64,000 bases of DNA from Paenibacillus bovis (GTDB lineage: Bacteria > Bacillota > Bacilli > Paenibacillales > Paenibacillaceae): positions 1,667,501 through 1,731,500 of the forward strand of contig NZ_CP013023.1 in assembly GCF_001421015.2 (NCBI RefSeq), read 5' to 3'. Positions within the stretch are counted from its first letter, which is position 1; each line of letters starts with the position of its first letter. The notes beneath the pieces were generated by a model. It did not search any database. It was not told the origin of the DNA and worked only from the letters and a program-made list of their open reading frames with translations. Below, one piece after another: positions 4,498-55,390 of this stretch. The position numbers and the translations under genes were made by a program.

Positions 4498-4574
4498 AAG
4501 TAGTAAGAGGGAAAAAATAGCCGTAATATGGATCATGCTATTGACATGGTAACGCCCATACAGCGGATAATCTT

Positions 4575-4772
4575 TGTAATGCTTGTAATGCTTGTAATGC
4601 TTGTAATGCTTGTAATGCTTGTAATGCTTGTAATGCTTGTAATGCTTGTAATGCTTGTAATGCTTGTAATGCTTGTAATGCTTGTAATGCTTGTAATGCT
4701 TGTAATGCTTGTAATGCTTGTAATGCTTGTAATGCTTGTAATGCTTGTAGTGCTTGTAGTGCTTGTAGTGCT
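4575..4772. repeat. 9-bp tandem array, 22 copies
   Basis: Nineteen perfect copies of TGTAATGCT are followed by three copies of TGTAGTGCT, with no interruption. The array lies about 80 bp after the DUF2357 stop, in a gap between convergent genes. Because the unit is 9 bp, two forward frames and all reverse frames stay open, giving spurious Met-Leu-Val or Ser-Ile-Thr repeat ORFs. Confidence 0.97.
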
Positions 4773-4988
4773 TGTAAGTGCTGTACTAATTAATACAGAA
4801 TACAATCCATTTCCGTATCAGAGCCTCATAATTAAATGTAGTAACATCAACTGCTGCTATTATTACTATTCTCTCTACAACCCTATACTTCACTACGATT
4901 AAACAAAGTCTACACAAAACCAACTGCTAACGATACATTCCAATGATCTGTATAAAAAAATAAATCCTGCAACAAGTACCATCCATGC

Positions 4989-5125
4989 ATAGAGCGGAGC
5001 AAAGGGAATAGAGGCAAAGGACGACATTTAAGCCTGGAGATCCTCATCTTCTCCTACCCATAAAGGATCTTCAGGCTTAACCGGAGGACGTGCCTCTATC
5101 CCTTTGCAAAGCGGATGGATGAAGC
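4989..5125 (+). repeat. structured intergenic element, copy A
   Basis: An imperfect palindrome. The outer arms GCAAAGGGAATAGAGGC and GCCTCTATCCCTTTGC pair with one bulged base. The inner arms TTAAGCCTGGAGATCC and GGATCTTCAGGCTTAA also pair. Between them lies the loop motif CGACAT on the left and ACCGGAGGACG on the right. A small hairpin-like segment around CTTTGCAAAG closes the right end. The same layout recurs at 11413, 13029, 13253, 34265 and 34550. Confidence 0.85.
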
Positions 5126-5709: not shown

Positions 5710-6145
5710 AGTAGATGCAGGATAGTGTAATCAGGAAACTACTAAAGTTCGTAATATTCTATGATACTGTTCTGCGGGCATTATTCCATCTTATGCTTTA
5801 GTCTGTGAAAGTGTCTGGTGAACCATTCACTCTTGGTTTTTGTCTGTCCGACTGTGTCGTTTCGCCAAATTTCTTGCTTATAGGCACTTCTGATTGCATA
5901 AATGAGGATAATAAGATTCTTCGATATGGATATAAAAATACAGGCGAAATCAGGATACTCCACATCACTTTTGTTAATTATAATCCATATTTTACAATAT
6001 ACTCCACTCATTGATTGTCCTATAATCGACGCTGAGGAGGTGATTCGAAAGGGGAAGCAGTACAGAACATACCAAAATAGAAAACGCTTACCGGAAAGGT
6101 TGGGCTCGACTCCAAACAAATTTCAGAGAAAGAAAGGTGAATGGA
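5710..6145 (+). promoter_or_regulatory. upstream region of the GH6 cellulase
   Basis: About 440 bp with no strong gene. It contains TATAAT at about 6021 as a possible -10 box, and a strong GAGGAGGTGAT near 6035 not followed by a standard ATG. AGAAAACGCTTACC at 6079-6092 matches the reverse CcpA cre consensus with one mismatch. A weak frame of basic residues runs from the GTG after the SD-like site to 6156, overlapping the GH6 start. Confidence 0.4.
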
Positions 6146-8332
6146 TTGAAGTCTAAAAAAGGGTTCTGGCAAGGTTTTAAGTATACAATGGCGGCTTCAC
6201 TGCTAGTAGGGAGTCTACTGCCGGCAATGTATGGACCGACAGCATATGCAGAGGCTCATGTGGATAATCCGTTTGTCGGTGCGACCGGATATGTGAATCC
6301 GGATTACGCCAAAGAAGTTGACGGTTCGATCGCCAGAGTCAGTGATCCTGCGCTCAAGGGTAAAATGCAGACGGTCAAATCCTACCCAACCGCCGTATGG
6401 CTGGATCGGATCGACGCGATCCAGGGCGGCGCATCCAATGCCGGACGTCTCAGTCTGGAAGGGCATCTGGATGCCGCACTGGCTCAAAAGCAAGGCAATA
6501 CCCCGATAACAGCAAGCTTTGTTATCTATGATCTGCCAGGACGGGATTGCCATGCGCTGGCATCTAACGGTGAACTTCCTTTGACCCAGGAAGCTCTGCA
6601 GCGCTACAAAACGGAATATATTGATGTAATCGCCAAGACGTTTGCGAATCCCAAATACAAGGATATCCGCATAGTTAACGTGATTGAGCCGGATAGTCTG
6701 CCGAATCTGGTCACCAACCTGAGTGATGCCCGCTGTGCAGCAGCCAACTCCAGCGGTATCTATGTCGAAGGCGTGCAGTATGCGCTAAATAAGCTTCATG
6801 CCATCCCTAATACCTACAACTACCTGGATATCGGCCACTCGGGCTGGCTGGGTTGGGATAACAACCGGTCAGCGACAATTACATTGTTCACCAATGTGGT
6901 GCGCAATACCACAGCCGGACTATCCAGCATTGACGGCTTCATTACCAACACAGCGAATACCACACCGCTAAATGAGCCGAATCTGCCGAACCCGGATCTG
7001 AATATCGGGGGACAGCCGATCAAGTCATCCAAGTATTATGAGTGGAATCCGTACTTTGACGAATCGGACTTCACTGCGGCGCTATACTCCGAATTCGTTC
7101 GTGCCGGATTCCCGAGTAGCATCGGTATGCTGATCGATACCGGACGCAACGGCTGGGGCGGACCGAATCGTCCGGCGATGGCTTCGGGCAGTGACATCAA
7201 TACGTATGTCAATTCCGGCCGTGTCGACCGCCGTGCTCACCGGGGCAACTGGTGTAATAACAGCGGAGCCGGTCTGGGTACACCACCAACCGCTGCACCT
7301 GCCGCTCATCTGGATGCCTATGTATGGGTCAAGCCTCCGGGTGAATCCGATGGCTCCAGCTCCCTGATCCCGAATAATGAAGGCAAAGGCTTTGACCGTA
7401 TGTGTGATCCGACTTACACCACAGCAGATGGCGTACTGACTGGCGCGCTGCCAAATGCTCCGATCTCCGGTGCGTGGTTCCATGACCAGTTCGTGATGCT
7501 GATCAACAACGCTTATCCGGCACTGGGCACAACGACACCACCAGTAACGCCTCCGGTAACCGTACCGACAGTACCTACAGGTCTGAAAGCAGCAGCCGCT
7601 GATACACAGGTGAAGCTGAATTGGTCATCCGTGACCGGAGCCGATCACTATGTAGTCAAAAGAGCGACCAGCGAGAGCGGTCCTTTTACTACACTGGATA
7701 GCAAAGTCACAACTACACTTTATACCGACAAAGCAGTTACGAACGGCACCACGTATTATTACAAAGTGAGTGCCGTGAATAGTGCAGGCACCAGCTCCGA
7801 CTCTGCAGCCGTCAGTGCCAAACCGGTAGCCGTCGTCGTGGTACCGCCTGTTGATCCGGAACCCAATCCAAATCCTAACCCCAATCCGAATCCAACACCA
7901 ACAGGCAGCTTGAGTGTGCAATATCGTGCAGCAGATACGAATGTATCGGATATGCAGATGAAGCCATTTTTCAATATCAAGAATAATGGTACTACTCCGG
8001 TAAATCTGAGCGATCTGAAGCTGCGTTACTACTTTACCCCGGAAGGTTCCCAGGAGATGAGCTCCTGGATCGACTGGGCTAAGGTAGGACAGGATAATAT
8101 CACACGTACCTTTGGCAATGGATATGTCGAGCTGAGCTTTGGCAGCGCAGCAGGGACAATCCAGCCGGGCAGCGAGAGTGGAGAGATTCAGCTGCGCATG
8201 GCCAAGTCCGACTGGTCGGTGATGGACGAGAGCAATGATTATTCTTTTGACGCGTCCAAGGCAAGCTATACCGATTGGAACAAGGTCACTCTATATCAGG
8301 CAGGCAAATTGGTCTGGGGTATGGAGCCATAA
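6146..8332 (+). CDS. secreted GH6 cellulase with FN3 and CBM3 domains
   Basis: Hydrolyses cellulose outside the cell; family GH6 includes inverting endoglucanases and cellobiohydrolases. Seen: a signal peptide ending AYA-EA near residue 36, and the GH6 motifs VIYDLPGRDCHA (about 126), IEPDSLPN (about 180, containing the usual acid Asp), GHSGWLGW and VWVKPPGESDG. A fibronectin type III domain follows at about 475-560, then an (NP) repeat linker, then a family 3 cellulose-binding module to the end. The TTG at 6146 is preferred because AAAGGTGA lies six bases upstream; a GTG at 6137 would add three residues. A terminator follows at 8419. Endo or exo action cannot be decided from motifs alone. 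Confidence 0.93.
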   Translation: MKSKKGFWQGFKYTMAASLLVGSLLPAMYGPTAYAEAHVDNPFVGATGYVNPDYAKEVDGSIARVSDPALKGKMQTVKSYPTAVWLDRIDAIQGGASNAGRLSLEGHLDAALAQKQGNTPITASFVIYDLPGRDCHALASNGELPLTQEALQRYKTEYIDVIAKTFANPKYKDIRIVNVIEPDSLPNLVTNLSDARCAAANSSGIYVEGVQYALNKLHAIPNTYNYLDIGHSGWLGWDNNRSATITLFTNVVRNTTAGLSSIDGFITNTANTTPLNEPNLPNPDLNIGGQPIKSSKYYEWNPYFDESDFTAALYSEFVRAGFPSSIGMLIDTGRNGWGGPNRPAMASGSDINTYVNSGRVDRRAHRGNWCNNSGAGLGTPPTAAPAAHLDAYVWVKPPGESDGSSSLIPNNEGKGFDRMCDPTYTTADGVLTGALPNAPISGAWFHDQFVMLINNAYPALGTTTPPVTPPVTVPTVPTGLKAAAADTQVKLNWSSVTGADHYVVKRATSESGPFTTLDSKVTTTLYTDKAVTNGTTYYYKVSAVNSAGTSSDSAAVSAKPVAVVVVPPVDPEPNPNPNPNPNPTPTGSLSVQYRAADTNVSDMQMKPFFNIKNNGTTPVNLSDLKLRYYFTPEGSQEMSSWIDWAKVGQDNITRTFGNGYVELSFGSAAGTIQPGSESGEIQLRMAKSDWSVMDESNDYSFDASKASYTDWNKVTLYQAGKLVWGMEP

Positions 8333-8695: not shown

Positions 8696-9473
8696 TTCAT
8701 AAACAGCCAAAGGAAATCATAACATTCCTTTTCTGTGTTTATTCTGCTCGCTCAATCGTATGCAGCTATAAAAATCTTGCATACATTATAATAGAAGAAA
8801 CACATTCTATTCTTCCTACCATCCCCTGTAAAATCCGCCGCAAAGAGCCATTTAACCGAATGGTTCTTCTTATATTATGCCTGTATAAGGACGATATTAA
8901 AGTATCGGTTGCTCAGCTTCCTTCCACTTTTTTGCCTTTTTACAATCATCCAAATCTTTTATAGCCTCACAACTCGCTTTCTGTCTGTGCAACCTATGGA
9001 GCAGACGTTATCGTCAGGGACTTTTTTACCTGAGCCGATATCTAAAAGATCGCTGACTTGCCCGATTCTGCAAAAATGTTTTACCCATTTACCGAAATAA
9101 CACCCTTCGTTGTTCCCAAGTTACCGCTTGATAGGTTTGTTGAAAATAAAAAATTGTGCATAAAGAATAAATTTAAAGTATTTGAATCGGGACTATTCAG
9201 TCTGTAATTCGCTGAGTTAAGCTTTTTTGGATCAAGTTCACTTCCTCTGTCCCTTGTTATTCGTTGTTTATGACCAAAAAATACCATCTAACTCCTGCTT
9301 CACAACTCCCATGCTTCTAGATCTTTATATTCATTTATTGTCAGAAATATATTATTTTGGTTATAAGCTGTATATACTGACGTAGGCAACAAGGTCTGGC
9401 ATCTTATGTTCAAAATCAGTGTGCTTCCCATACTGAAATCCAAATGAGCATCACCAAAAGGAGACTTCGGAAT
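8696..9473. other. intergenic region before the GH5 gene
   Basis: No supported gene in about 780 bp. A hairpin AAGAGCCATT/AATGGTTCTT at 8843-8868, followed by CTTATATT, may be a weak terminator for the 36-codon ORF. The rest is AT-rich and presumably carries the GH5 promoter, which I could not place with confidence. Confidence 0.4.
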
Positions 9474-11093
9474 ATGTGGATGAAAACAGTCAAAAAATTC
9501 TCTTCCGGTGTACTGGCAGCGACGCTGACCGTAACACTGGCCGTATCAGCAGGAGGGACGTCTGCCGAAGCAGCGACGACTCCAGTACAACAGCATGGTC
9601 AGCTGTCGATCAAAAATGGACGTCTGGTCGATACGAAAGGAACACCCGTACAGCTGAAAGGGATCAGCTCGCACGGTATCCAATGGTTCGGCAACTATGT
9701 GAATAAAGACACGATGAAATGGCTGCGCGACGACTGGGGTATCTCGGTATTTCGGGTAGCGATGTATACAAACGAAGGCGGTTACATTTCCAATCCGTCT
9801 GTCGCCAATAAAGTCAAAGAAGCCGTAGCCGCAGCCAAAGACCTGGGCGTCTATGTGATCATCGACTGGCATATCCTGTCCGATGGCGATCCAAATACGT
9901 ACAAAACACAAGCGAAAAACTTTTTCAATGAAATGTCCGCTCAATACGGTACACTGCCTAACGTGATCTATGAAATTGCCAACGAGCCAAATGGCGGCGT
10001 AACATGGAATAACCAGATCCGTCCGTATGCAGTCGATGTAACCAAATCGATCCGTGCCAATGACCCGGATAACATCATCATCGTCGGTACAGGCACATGG
10101 AGTCAGGATGTGCAGGATGCAGCAGATAACCAGCTGCCGGATGCCAATACGATGTACGCAGTGCATTTCTATGCCGGTACCCATGGCCAATTCCTGCGCG
10201 ACCGTATCGACTACGCCCTGAGCAAAAAAGCACCTGTATTTGTAACCGAGTGGGGCACAAGCGATGCTTCCGGTAACGGTGGTCCTTTCCTGACCGAATC
10301 CAAAACATGGATCGATTTCCTCAATAGTCGCGGCGTAAGCTGGGTGAACTGGTCTCTGTCCGACAAGAGTGAAGCTTCGGCAGCACTGACACCAGGAGCA
10401 AGCTCGACTGGCGGATGGTCCCAGGCCAACCTGTCTACTTCTGGTAAATTCGTCAGAGAGCAGACACGTGCAGGTTCTACAACGGTAGGTGGAGGTACGA
10501 CAACTCCAACACCGACGCAGCCGACGACTCCTACAACACCAGGTAATGGTGGCGGTAACACAGGCGGCGGTACAACGTCTCCGACTCCGGGTACAGGTAG
10601 CGGAACTCCAGACACAGGCACAACCGCACCGGCTAACGGCGCACTTTCCCTGCAATTCCGCAGCGGCGACAATAACCCGTCCGATAACGCCATGCGTCCG
10701 GTATTTAATATCAAAAATAATGGCAGCACACCGGTTAAGCTGAGCGATCTGAAAGTACGCTATTATTTTAACAACGACGGCAAATCCGGTGACCAGACAT
10801 ATATCGACTGGGCTCAGGTAGGTGCAGCCAATATAACGACTACATCCAAAGCACTGTCCAGTAGTAAATCGACTGCCAACCGCTATGTAGAGTTCTCCTT
10901 TACCAGCGCAGCAGGCTCGATCCCGGCAGGCGGACAGAGCGGTGAAGTCCAGGCACGTATTCACCCATACGACTGGAGCAACTTTAACGAAACCAACGAC
11001 TATTCCTACAATAATGGCAGCACCACCTTCACCACTTACAACAAAGTAACCATCTATAACCAGGACAAACTGGTATGGGGCGTCACTCCGTAA
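9474..11093 (+). CDS. secreted GH5 endoglucanase with CBM3
   Basis: Retaining endo-beta-1,4-glucanase, close in layout to Bacillus EglS/Cel5 enzymes. Seen: a signal peptide ending SAEA, a GH5 barrel with the acid/base Glu in YEIANEPNG (about residue 170) and the nucleophile Glu in FVTEWGTS (about 259), a Thr/Pro/Gly-rich linker, and a family 3 cellulose-binding module from about residue 390. The module is a paralogue of the one on the GH6 enzyme (shared NIKNNG and LSDLK motifs). The ATG at 9474 follows AAAAGGAG by ten bases; an ATG at 9444 would place that site inside the gene. A strong terminator follows. Confidence 0.95.
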
Positions 11094-11260: not shown

Positions 11261-11323
11261 GCGTAATGCGTAATGCGTAATGCGTAATGCGTAATGCGTA
11301 ATGCGTAATGCGTAATGCGTAAT
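11261..11323. repeat. 7-bp tandem array, 9 copies
   Basis: Nine perfect copies of GCGTAAT, then a broken one (GTGTACA). It shares the core GTAATGC with the 9-bp array at 4575. It sits between the GH5 terminator and structured element copy B. Confidence 0.97.
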
Positions 11324-11412
11324 GTGTACAAAAGCAGTTGTTTCTTTATCGTTCGACAATCCGCTCCATTCTCCCAAATAACAATATAATGAAAATACAA
11401 ATGACGCACAAG

Positions 11413-11546
11413 CACATAACGCAGGAAAGGAAATAAGAGCAAAGGACGACATTTAAGCCTGGAGATCCTCATCTACTCCTACTCATAAAGGATCTCCAGG
11501 CTTAACCGGAGGACGTGCTCTTATTCCTTTCCGGAGTGGATGAAGC
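11413..11546 (+). repeat. structured intergenic element, copy B
   Basis: Outer arms GGAAAGGAAATAAGAGC and GCTCTTATTCCTTTCC pair with one extra A on the left. Inner arms TTAAGCCTGGAGATCC and GGATCTCCAGGCTTAA pair fully. The loop motifs CGACAT and ACCGGAGGACG are identical to copies A and C. Confidence 0.88.
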
Positions 11547-11640
11547 CAATCCACTCTCGCTCTCATTCCTTTCCAAAGGGAATGAAGCGAATCCCCCCAT
11601 CACTCATATTCGTTTCCAAAGTAAACGAATCGAGTACAAC
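11517..11640. repeat. degenerate 42-43 bp tandem tail of copy B
   Basis: The right arm of copy B (from GCTCTTATTCC, 11517) is repeated 42 bp later (GCTCTCATTCC, 11559) and again, more diverged, near 11602. Each unit carries a small palindrome of the type ATTCCTTTCCAAAGGGAAT. Confidence 0.65.
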
Positions 11641-12820: not shown

Positions 12821-13028
12821 ATGAAATACCCCTTTTCCCTAATCGATCATCCTGTAGATGTCTGGATGAATCTTCTCATCCATGGGAGCTGATCCATTCA
12901 GCTGTATGAGCGCATCGGCTCTATATGTATAGCATGCTGGCAGAACAGCCCCAGACTAATATCGGAAAATAAACCGAAAATCTGAAGCCATTCCAATACG
13001 CTCTAAAGGGCTTGGGATAGGGGAATTG

Positions 13029-13158
13029 CTTCATTCACTCCAGACAGGATAAGAACCTGTCCTCCAGTTAAGCCTGAAGATACTGAATTAGTATTAGAAA
13101 AGAAGATCTTCAAGCTGAAAGGTCATCCTGGTCCGTATTTCCTTTCTTCCGTTGCGTG
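13029..13158 (-). repeat. structured intergenic element, copy E (diverged)
   Basis: Read on the minus strand, it shows ACGCAACGGAAGAAAGGAAATA at the left, the loop GGATGACCTTT, inner arms AGCTTGAAGAT and ATCTTCAGGCT (with G-U), the right loop TTAACTGGAGGAC, and an end GGAGTGAATGAAGC. These line up with copies B and C, but the outer stem is degraded. Confidence 0.7.
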
Positions 13159-13252: not shown

Positions 13253-13386
13253 CACATAACGCAGGAAAGGAAATAAGAGCAAAGGACGACATTTAAGCCT
13301 GGAGATCCTCATTTACTCCAACCAATAAAGGATCTCCAGGCTTAACCGGAGGACGTGCTCTTATTCCTTTCCGAAGTGAATGAAGT
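13253..13386 (+). repeat. structured intergenic element, copy C
   Basis: Nearly identical to copy B over its stems and internal loop, with changes mainly in the apical loop (TTTACTCCAACC against CTACTCCTACTC). It continues directly into a 43-bp tandem repeat. Confidence 0.88.
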
Positions 13387-13528
13387 CAGCACACCAACCG
13401 CTCTTATTCCTTTCCGAAGGGAATGAAGTCGATACACTAACCGCTCTTATTCCTTTCCAAAGCAAATGAACTCAGCACTCTAATCGTTCTTATACCTTCT
13501 CGAAGTAAATAAAATCATTACAATGGAG
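13357..13528. repeat. 43-bp tandem repeat, about 3.8 copies
   Basis: Units begin with GCTCTTATTCCTTTCC at 13357, 13400 and 13443, and with GTTCTTATACCTT at 13486, a period of exactly 43 bp. The first unit is the right arm of structured element copy C. Each unit carries a small palindrome such as ATTCCTTTCCGAAGGGAAT. Confidence 0.85.
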
Positions 13529-34264: not shown

Positions 34265-34406
34265 TGGGGTGCGTACAGCGCTACGGGAAGGAATTCTACC
34301 GGCGACCTCCGGTTAAGAATGGATATTTGGAATGACCGCTTGCAGCGGACAATATCCATTCTTAAATGTCGGTCTATGGCAGAAGTTCCTTCCCTTCGCT
34401 ATGTGC
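34265..34406 (-). repeat. structured intergenic element, copy F
   Basis: On the minus strand: left end CACATAGCGAAGG, outer arms GGGAAGGAACTTCTGCC and GGTAGAATTCCTTCCC (one bulged base), left loop ACCGACAT, inner arms TTAAGAATGGATATT and AATATCCATTCTTAA, and right loop CCGGAGGTCG. The stems differ completely from those of copies A-C yet pair perfectly, while the loop motifs are kept. Confidence 0.88.
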
Positions 34407-34549: not shown

Positions 34550-34682
34550 CACAGAGCGGAGAAAAGAGAATTCTGCCAGCGCCCGACATTTAAGAAGGGA
34601 GATCGACCGATAACATCGGTCATTCAGGATCTCCTTTCTTAACCGGAGGAAGCGGTAGAATCTCTTTGCGTAGCGGATTGAC
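34550..34682 (+). repeat. structured intergenic element, copy D
   Basis: Outer arms AAAGAGAATTCTGCC and GGTAGAATCTCTTT (one bulged A), left loop CCCGACAT, inner arms TTAAGAAGGGAGATC and GATCTCCTTTCTTAA, right loop CCGGAGGAAG, and right end CGTAGCGGATTGA. Its apical part holds its own small hairpin ACCGATAACATCGGT. Confidence 0.88.
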
Positions 34683-34814
34683 CTTCAAACCACCTCTTAA
34701 TCTTTTCAAAAATAAAGTCACTCCACACATCCAATTTCTCTACAAATCCAGCTTTCTCTTGCTATATAGCTCATCTCATTTCATCCCATTCCAATAAAAA
34801 TCAAATCCCAGTCA

Positions 34815-50260: not shown

Positions 50261-50410
50261 GAAAAGGATCGGTATAGTAGTTACCGCATATGGATAATGC
50301 TTATCCAACGTGTAGGTGTAGACGTCCGATTTGTATACAGGTTTGCGAACACAAAGAACAGACATAATACAAAGAATCACCAAGAGTACAAAGCGCACTA
50401 AGCTCACCGA

Positions 50411-50473
50411 GAGCACAAAGAGTACAAAGAGTACAAAGATTACAAAGAGTACAAAGAGTACAAAGAGTACAAA
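50411..50473. repeat. 9-bp tandem array, 7 copies plus degenerate flank
   Basis: Seven copies of GAGTACAAA (first GAGCACAAA, fourth GATTACAAA), with degenerate forerunners back to about 50350. It runs straight into the terminator at 50471. Confidence 0.93.
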
Positions 50474-50507
50474 AAAACCTTTGCTATCCATCAGCAAAGG
50501 TTTTTTA
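50471..50507. terminator. bidirectional terminator
   Basis: AAAAAACCTTTGCT and AGCAAAGGTTTTTT pair perfectly around ATCCATC. It closes the convergent alkyltransferase and transglutaminase genes. Confidence 0.92.
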
Positions 50508-51575: not shown

Positions 51576-51686
51576 ACAAAAAGAGCTTTTCCGTTCGGTA
51601 GCTGGCTGCCAACCCCTGCGGGTAAGGCCCTTTAGCTTTGCGTCCCTGTCTTTAGACAGGTTTGCCGTTATCGTGTAAAAGCTCTT
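51576..51686 (-). ncRNA. cyclic di-GMP-I riboswitch (GEMM-I)
   Basis: On the minus strand it carries the GEMM-I core in order: GGCAAACC, a short hairpin TGTC-TAAA-GACA, GGGACGCAAAGCTAAAGGGCC, then GGTTGGCAGCCAGCTACCG. It lines up segment by segment with the Vibrio Vc2 aptamer as I recall it. The closing helix AAGAGCTTTT/AAAAGCTCTT is directly followed by TTTTTG, so ligand-stabilised P1 may itself act as a terminator. It precedes the transglutaminase gene. Specificity for c-di-GMP rather than cGAMP is inferred. Confidence 0.9.
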
Positions 51687-55112: not shown

Positions 55113-55203
55113 GTATATGGATAAATAATGATCTGGCTATAACCAGCCTGCATATTTAACATAGCTTTCATTATACGCATATAGGAAAAGCTGTGACAAT
55201 TAG

Positions 55204-55293
55204 TAGCAGTAGCAGTAGCAGTAGCAGTAGCAGTAGCAGTAGCAGTAGCAGTAGCAGTAGCAGTAGCAGTAGCAGTAGCAGTAGCAGTAGCAG
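55204..55293. repeat. 6-bp tandem array, 15 copies
   Basis: Fifteen perfect copies of TAGCAG, with degenerate GTGACAGTGG-like units after it. It lies between the terminator and the end of the convergent isomerase gene; the forward serine-repeat ORF over it is an artefact. Confidence 0.97.
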
Positions 55294-55390
55294 TGACAGG
55301 AATAGGAACAGTGACAGTGGTAGCAGGTATCTGGATTATCACGCTACATGCCGTGTCTACTCATTATGCTGCCTTTTAAGCTCTACCATT

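Follow-up and report, generated by a model that had tools for sequence, protein, structure and literature searches.

Small palindromic repeats in bacterial genomes are usually classed as dead MITEs. A stretch of 64,000 nucleotides from the Paenibacillus bovis chromosome (the window) holds six copies of an intergenic hairpin whose stems differ between copies while the internal loop stays the same, and this raises the question of whether such an element is the debris of transposition or something that the genome keeps for its folded shape. On balance, we favor a multicopy hairpin of MITE-like origin in which the conserved unit is the single-stranded fold formed on one strand.

An earlier note on this locus had described the six copies, each with an outer stem, an internal loop, an inner stem, and an apical loop, and, in copies A, B, D, and F, a one-base bulge on the left arm of the outer stem. 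A covariance model search recovered all six copies where they had been reported (Table 1), and the architecture proved real, five of them folding with z scores of -6.5 to -9.7 and 0 of 200 dinucleotide shuffles folding as well. The remaining one, copy C, is degraded (z of -1.15, with 28 of 200 dinucleotide shuffles as good) and still receives 99 bits from the covariance model. The bulge is likewise genuine: it is an A in 85 of the 89 aligned genome copies, and both flanking pairs are intact in 79 of the 89. With letters assigned in order of position, the further claim that the stems of D and F are unrelated to those of A to C was correct for the copy at 34550 and wrong for the copy at 13253, which is 94% identical to the copy at 11413; the window copies with stems unlike the remaining four are those at 34265 (E) and 34550 (F). 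Copies B and D are in fact the closest pair in the genome, at 94.8% identity. From the outside in, the hairpin consists of a basal GNA/GNA loop, the outer stem with its bulged A, a core loop of CGAC opposite GGAG, the inner stem, and a variable apical loop. Judging from base order, CGAC would face GGAG as C-G, G.A, A.G, and C-G.

Table 1. Copies of the hairpin in the window and parts of copy B (positions in the window; R1, covariance model; z, folding score)
Feature	Position	Strand	Evidence or remark
Copy A	4988..5121	+	R1 144.9 bits; fold z -7.1
Copy B (focus copy of the earlier note)	11413..11546	+	R1 157.6 bits; fold z -8.9
Copy B basal loop, left GNA	11421..11423	+	G and A on both strands in 80/89 copies
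Copy B outer stem, left arm, conserved bulged A at 11433	11424..11440	+	R1 structure
Copy B core internal loop, left strand CGAC	11447..11450	+	CGAC and GGAG both exact in 56/89 copies
Copy B inner stem, left arm	11453..11467	+	R1 structure
Copy B inner stem, right arm	11491..11505	+	R1 structure
Copy B core internal loop, right strand GGAG	11508..11511	+	Opposite CGAC
Copy B outer stem, right arm	11517..11532	+	R1 structure
Copy B basal loop, right GNA	11533..11535	+	G and A on both strands in 80/89 copies
Copy B 3' tail, first 40 nt, C-rich/G-poor class	11547..11586	+	Composition over 93 copies
Copy C, partly degraded; left partner of divergent pair with D	13028..13158	-	R1 99.3 bits; fold z -1.15
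Copy D; right partner of divergent pair with C, spacer 94 bp	13253..13386	+	R1 158.2 bits; fold z -9.7
Copy E; left partner of divergent pair with F, second stem subfamily	34271..34405	-	R1 108.2 bits; fold z -9.1
Copy F; right partner of divergent pair with E, spacer 144 bp	34550..34683	+	R1 107.9 bits; fold z -6.5

The window has other features as well. Two cellulases, one of family GH6 and one of GH5, both carrying a CBM3 domain, are encoded near copies A and B (window 6137-8332 and 9444-11093). Downstream of copies B and D lie tandem partial repeats (about 43 nt) of the right arm and tail (11559-11638 and 13357-13522), an arrangement that a motif scan found after 2 of the 93 copies in the genome. 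Minisatellites (short tandem repeats) occur in the window at 4504-4813, 11261-11335, 50379-50477, and 55178-55333, and repeats of a similar kind occupy a number of the spacers between paired copies in other parts of the chromosome. The sole Rfam match in the window at the gathering threshold is a c-di-GMP-I-GGC riboswitch on the minus strand at 51593-51675; no window element has one. In 19 loci scanned at E values up to 1 (L001 overlaps the window), the only overlap with an element was MIR1858 at L058, at 28 of 137 bits and far below the cutoff. Within these scans, the view that the hairpin is not a recognized named RNA stands.

Model R1 was built from alignment A2 of 30 copies of the own genome, from which three of 30 BLAST loci (L025, L026, and L028) were left out and to which three window copies were added. 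Together with BLAST, it places 93 distinct copies in the 5.35-Mb chromosome; many raw matches were the weaker reverse reading of the same near-palindrome and were not counted. Given 93 copies in one genome, the weakest scoring 31.5 bits, the matches are not chance. None of the 93 is identical to another, and the median pair shares 63% identity; one copy is truncated with an odd insertion/deletion pattern, and one is a fused palindrome.

The copies are arranged in a characteristic way. Fifty-three are single and 40 form 20 close pairs. All 20 pairs closer than 700 bp are divergent (minus then plus, with the 5' ends facing), with spacers of 90 to 561 bp, and the only other neighbors within 1.5 kb in this genome are plus-minus and 1,482 bp apart. 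The minus-plus order also holds for 20 of 21 neighbors within 1.5 kb at loci from P. dauci, P. wulumuqiensis, and P. hunanensis, many of them orthologous to the same pairs. Pair counts in the genomes G004 (P. dauci) and G011 (P. wulumuqiensis) drew on the 59 matches listed out of 106 and out of 117, respectively. The distant genome G006 follows the same rule in 6 of 6 neighbors within 700 bp among the 139 copies entered of 150 matches (the listed ones left out are eight of 71 to 75 bits, one of which overlaps a same-strand copy at 5669598-5669825), and other orders appear there between 700 bp and 3 kb. The rule has a few exceptions in other genomes; the clear one among the matches listed is G239:C10:17697-18182, with two minus-strand matches to a second model, R2, 239 bp apart. 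Two causes of the divergent rule were considered and rejected: terminators, which only 3 of the 20 spacers contain, and a single transposon with a conserved middle, the spacers having no matches to each other at an E value of 0.01. At L092:3079-3209 (chromosome position 2338578), a fused copy combines two half-elements, left by a deletion between the members of a divergent pair; in P. dauci (L160) both members of this pair still stand apart. Gene positions used in this study are longest-ORF calls and not annotation.

The diversity of the copies made it possible to examine how the stems change. The alignment of paralogues comprises 89 of the 93 copies (99 rows less 10 reverse-strand readings, from 54 of 57 source loci, with L092, L101, and L109 left out and one L091 copy below threshold). 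Double-sided changes were present at 35 of the 37 modeled base pairs, 94.4% of cells were canonical, and double-change cells numbered 686, compared to 74 to 121 with slid columns; these controls, slid columns and independence, take only partial account of relatedness among copies. All four Watson-Crick pairs are used at single stem positions (one pair is C-G in 45 copies, G-C in 33, A-T in 5, and T-A in 4), and a single genome holds several stem subfamilies. One-sided changes favored G-U over A-C (67 versus 26), four poor pairs of the 37 being excluded from this count, from the bulge count, and from the sister comparison.

Copies were also compared at corresponding positions in P. dauci (G004) and P. 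wulumuqiensis (G011), with the same orientation required, giving 46 own-to-sister comparisons. In the 42 whose elements were at least 0.8 identical, the element averaged 0.92, compared to 0.69 and 0.66 for its 80-nt flanks and 0.51 for random pairs; in the 45 with identity of at least 0.6, the values were 0.91 against 0.68 and 0.66. Both flanks fell below 0.66 while the element stayed at or above 0.85 in 16 of the 42. Compensatory changes were analyzed in 41 of the 46 comparisons, those dropped having identity below 0.8 or no row in alignment A3. Over 1,349 stem cells there were 15 double changes against 1.6 expected, 14 of them from Watson-Crick to Watson-Crick, and the one-sided changes comprised 38 G-U, 8 A-C, and 16 other mismatches. 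Substitution rates were 0.034 in stems, 0.029 in the core loop, 0.028 in the basal loop, and 0.147 in the apical loop. The p values of the sister comparison are optimistic, since some own copies enter it twice, once for each sister species. An exact-pattern scan supplied the sister loci from a collection of 84,980 species genomes (63 stretches, all from three Paenibacillus species, with own-genome records possibly excluded), so that the sample favors conserved copies. Pair members that do not match the pattern are also conserved, and some copies have been lost or deleted. A direct search with one own region found that P. dauci had kept 3 of 3 copies and P. wulumuqiensis 1 of 3; in G001, the single copy of the region was absent. 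The scan for a clean empty site gave none, the candidates being deletions or poorly alignable gaps. In distant G006, one-sided changes were 17 G-U and 9 A-C, a difference that is not significant (p = 0.17).

Because the hairpin outlasts its flanks, changes come in pairs, and G-U exceeds A-C, the fold seems to be preserved where it stands and to be read from a single strand. Covariation above background, as expected of a functional structured RNA, is present among paralogues and at orthologous sites, and together with the persistence of the hairpin while its flanks turn over, it supports the proposal of the earlier note that selection acts on structure. These comparisons show a fold kept across paralogues with free exchange of stems, and one that compensatory change preserves at the compared orthologous sites, where the plus strand tolerates G-U more readily than A-C. 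That asymmetry would be given equally by an RNA or by a DNA hairpin folded from the plus strand.

The family extends well beyond P. bovis. Of the 16 genomes of the genus, counting the own genome, 10 have R1 matches; the 43 other relatives sampled have none. The second model, R2, was built from divergent copies of G006, G014, and G015 and finds matches in 16 of 16 genomes of the genus, in 123 of 295 genomes and 11 of 19 genera of the family, and in 72 of 198 sampled genomes and 15 of 43 genera of the order. The R2 survey scored at most 11 or 17 candidates per genome with rough E values, and weak single hits are for that reason not to be relied on. In 32 wider copies taken from the better matches, the left arm always carries CGCCTTT, with ACAGCG or AGAGCG opposite (by eye). 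With 93 copies in P. bovis, at least 139 in G006, and matches in 72 of the 198 order genomes, the hairpin is a common feature that lacks an Rfam model in the loci scanned.

Relatives reveal where such copies may have come from. In G002, G003, G008, G009, and G012, the hairpin is the center of an element of about 200 bp. Among 20 loci of these genomes, TGTCGAGAAAGTC inverted ends are both exact in 12 and carry at most two mismatches per end in 6 more, and in all 20 the two outer flanks have the look of intrinsic-terminator hairpins and are more alike than in any of 20 shuffles. On a plain reading of these elements (L243-L262), intrinsic terminators appear to be their insertion sites, the terminator hairpin being duplicated at insertion. 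The combination that defines a MITE, terminal inverted repeats with a target duplication, is therefore found in these relatives, and ten G002 copies are 97 to 100% identical. The own copies have only a weak GATGCA-like end and edge direct repeats of 4.25 nt, compared to 4.28 nt with mismatched flanks, and show no target duplication. No autonomous element bounded by TGTCGAGAAAGTC was seen among the end sites listed in four genomes, and the 15 stretches examined contained no second such end at transposon distance. A hairpin lies within 100 nt on the 5' side of 21 of 46 copies in G006 (17 with a T or A run), compared to 3 of 47 on the 3' side. The own copies have no such 5' terminator link by the stricter detector, which places a terminator within 100 nt of two copies among the 53 singles and two among the 40 in pairs; it disagrees with a looser detector, which within 300 nt of the 93 copies found 16 on the 5' side and 11 on the 3' side. 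A group II intron match at L240:965-1108 lies a few hundred bases from a terminator and element copy.

The near-identical copies, inverted ends, and duplicated flanking hairpin of G002 and its relatives are what a purely selfish MITE would leave, with the hairpin serving as a transposase signal in single-stranded or cruciform DNA and the stems drifting as subfamilies burst and die, without host function. Own single copies also occur in tandem, convergent, and divergent gaps alike (25 + 7, 13, and 8 of 53), and 40 of the 53 run along the direction of replication, as expected if the plus strand folds on the lagging-strand template. A lagging-strand DNA hairpin stays alive as a rival because of this bias, which G006 lacks, no strand switch being visible there; in gene-neutral gaps of the own genome the bias is 15 of 21 (p = 0.08). 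We nevertheless regard the selfish MITE as unlikely, since, in the clade of the window, sister species carry copies at matching positions that continue to compensate, and the 93 own copies include no identical pair, 94.8% being the highest identity.

Downstream of the hairpin is a second constant feature. Over the 93 copies, the first 40 nt on the 3' side contain C at 0.32, G at 0.117, and T at 0.246, a skew of -0.47, and C exceeds G in 83 of 93; in control sequence (mid-intergenic, following terminators, or following stop codons) the skew lies between +0.02 and +0.05. The skew is -0.44 in 91 copies of three sister species, -0.52 in 20 distant copies, and -0.36 in 47 G006 copies, and it is weaker, at -0.31, in 32 copies from the family and order at large, with -0.25 for the 17 of these that lie outside the family. 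The tails fold weakly. The hairpin and T run of an intrinsic terminator are not what is found here, the tail being C-rich with the T content given above. By the alignments and compositions examined, fixed internal loops, the bulge, and the C-rich tail are shown to accompany the fold, and the relatives carry marks of recent mobility.

A hairpin followed by a C-rich tract is linked to Rho-dependent ends, and the tail makes an explanation of this kind attractive: the hairpin and the unstructured C-rich, G-poor tract would load Rho, and the divergent pairs would block read-through both ways as a transcription-end or insulator module. The low folding energy of the tails agrees with this, as do the divergent pairs and the position of 38 of the 53 singles after a co-oriented gene (p = 0.002). 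The explanation failed one indirect test, intrinsic terminators being not significantly rarer at gene ends that adjoin elements (20 of 81 versus 35 of 102; p = 0.19), so that own copies as replacement terminators were rejected, and copies lying antisense to both neighbors have tails of similar C richness. We consider it quite doubtful. Two further roles were set aside. Sigma-A sites reading into the element are not enriched (18 of 93 above threshold, compared to 21% of shuffles), which argues against a promoter for each hairpin; sites resembling promoters that point away from the 5' side were more frequent, at 35 of 93, a count without a matched control. A role in the untranslated regions of neighboring genes fits poorly, since sense and antisense copies do not differ in covariance score.

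The paired changes themselves might arise without selection if template switching between palindrome arms kept repairing the stems, since correction of one arm by the other would presumably also yield double changes. Repair of this kind should remove the asymmetric internal loops and the bulge, yet both persist, and it leaves the difference between the stem and apical loop rates unexplained; we hold it to be very improbable.

We return to hairpins of mobile origin that are retained as single-strand structures, probably RNA. In this model, the hairpin would have spread by transposition and then been retained at its sites, and the strand that folds would be RNA and not single-stranded DNA. Some partner, probably but not necessarily a protein, would recognize the G.A-type loops and the bulge, with the stems acting as spacers, and the copies may now serve the host at many of their sites. 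A broader version, which we offer tentatively, describes order-wide multicopy RNA modules (a loop-coded hairpin with a C-rich tail, often as outward twins) with a dedicated putative partner, kept at many sites per genome as a transposon-spread RNA regulon of Paenibacillales. One family can here be traced from recently mobile-looking copies in G002 to copies that are seemingly held by shape selection in the clade of the window. Because it spans both states, the question of whether and how a mobile hairpin turns into a working part of a genome becomes directly testable.

No paper on this hairpin family was recognized in the literature searched, and the word Paenibacillus is reportedly absent from two surveys of bacterial structured RNA, of 26 and 50 genomes. 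In integron attC sites and the ends of IS200/IS605 elements, a folded single strand is recognized via loops and extrahelical bases while the stems are free. The Paenibacillus hairpin differs from these in that the own genome has no Y1 transposase (PF01797) at an E value of 0.001 and no cassette arrays were noticed. PF01797 is present in 5 of 14 control genomes and in 1 of 16 genomes of the genus, and the linked RAYT suggested by the earlier note was accordingly absent from the genome at that threshold. Closest in behavior are REPIN/REP elements, which are small multicopy intergenic inverted-repeat hairpins in which compensatory changes are common according to their discoverers (PMC3116915). 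That likeness is the argument for a REPIN moved by a RAYT (Y1) transposase, an origin that the lack of PF01797 makes most improbable for this genome, unless a highly divergent Y1 enzyme went undetected by the profile. A hairpin with compensatory changes is present as in REPINs, and its halves are at most putative REPs; the Paenibacillus element is a single 134-nt hairpin with fixed loops and a bulge, for which no RAYT was found, and its paired hairpins point outward, 42 to 561 bp apart. ERIC, a 127-bp intergenic element of enterobacteria and Vibrio, is predicted to fold as a single long stem-loop (PMC2267715); the terms "covaria" and "compensatory" are absent from the text of that source, so that a pattern of fixed loops and free stems is not described there. 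Among the intergenic structured repeats of Bacillales, bcr1 to bcr18 of Bacillus cereus include the MITE-like bcr1 to bcr3 and the predicted functional RNAs bcr10 and bcr18, with 40 to 51% of repeat copies within mRNA (PMC3446304); the reference list of that paper carries a title calling bcr1 specific to the B. cereus group. Compared by description, the Paenibacillus family stands apart from the bcr repeats as one spread over Paenibacillales.
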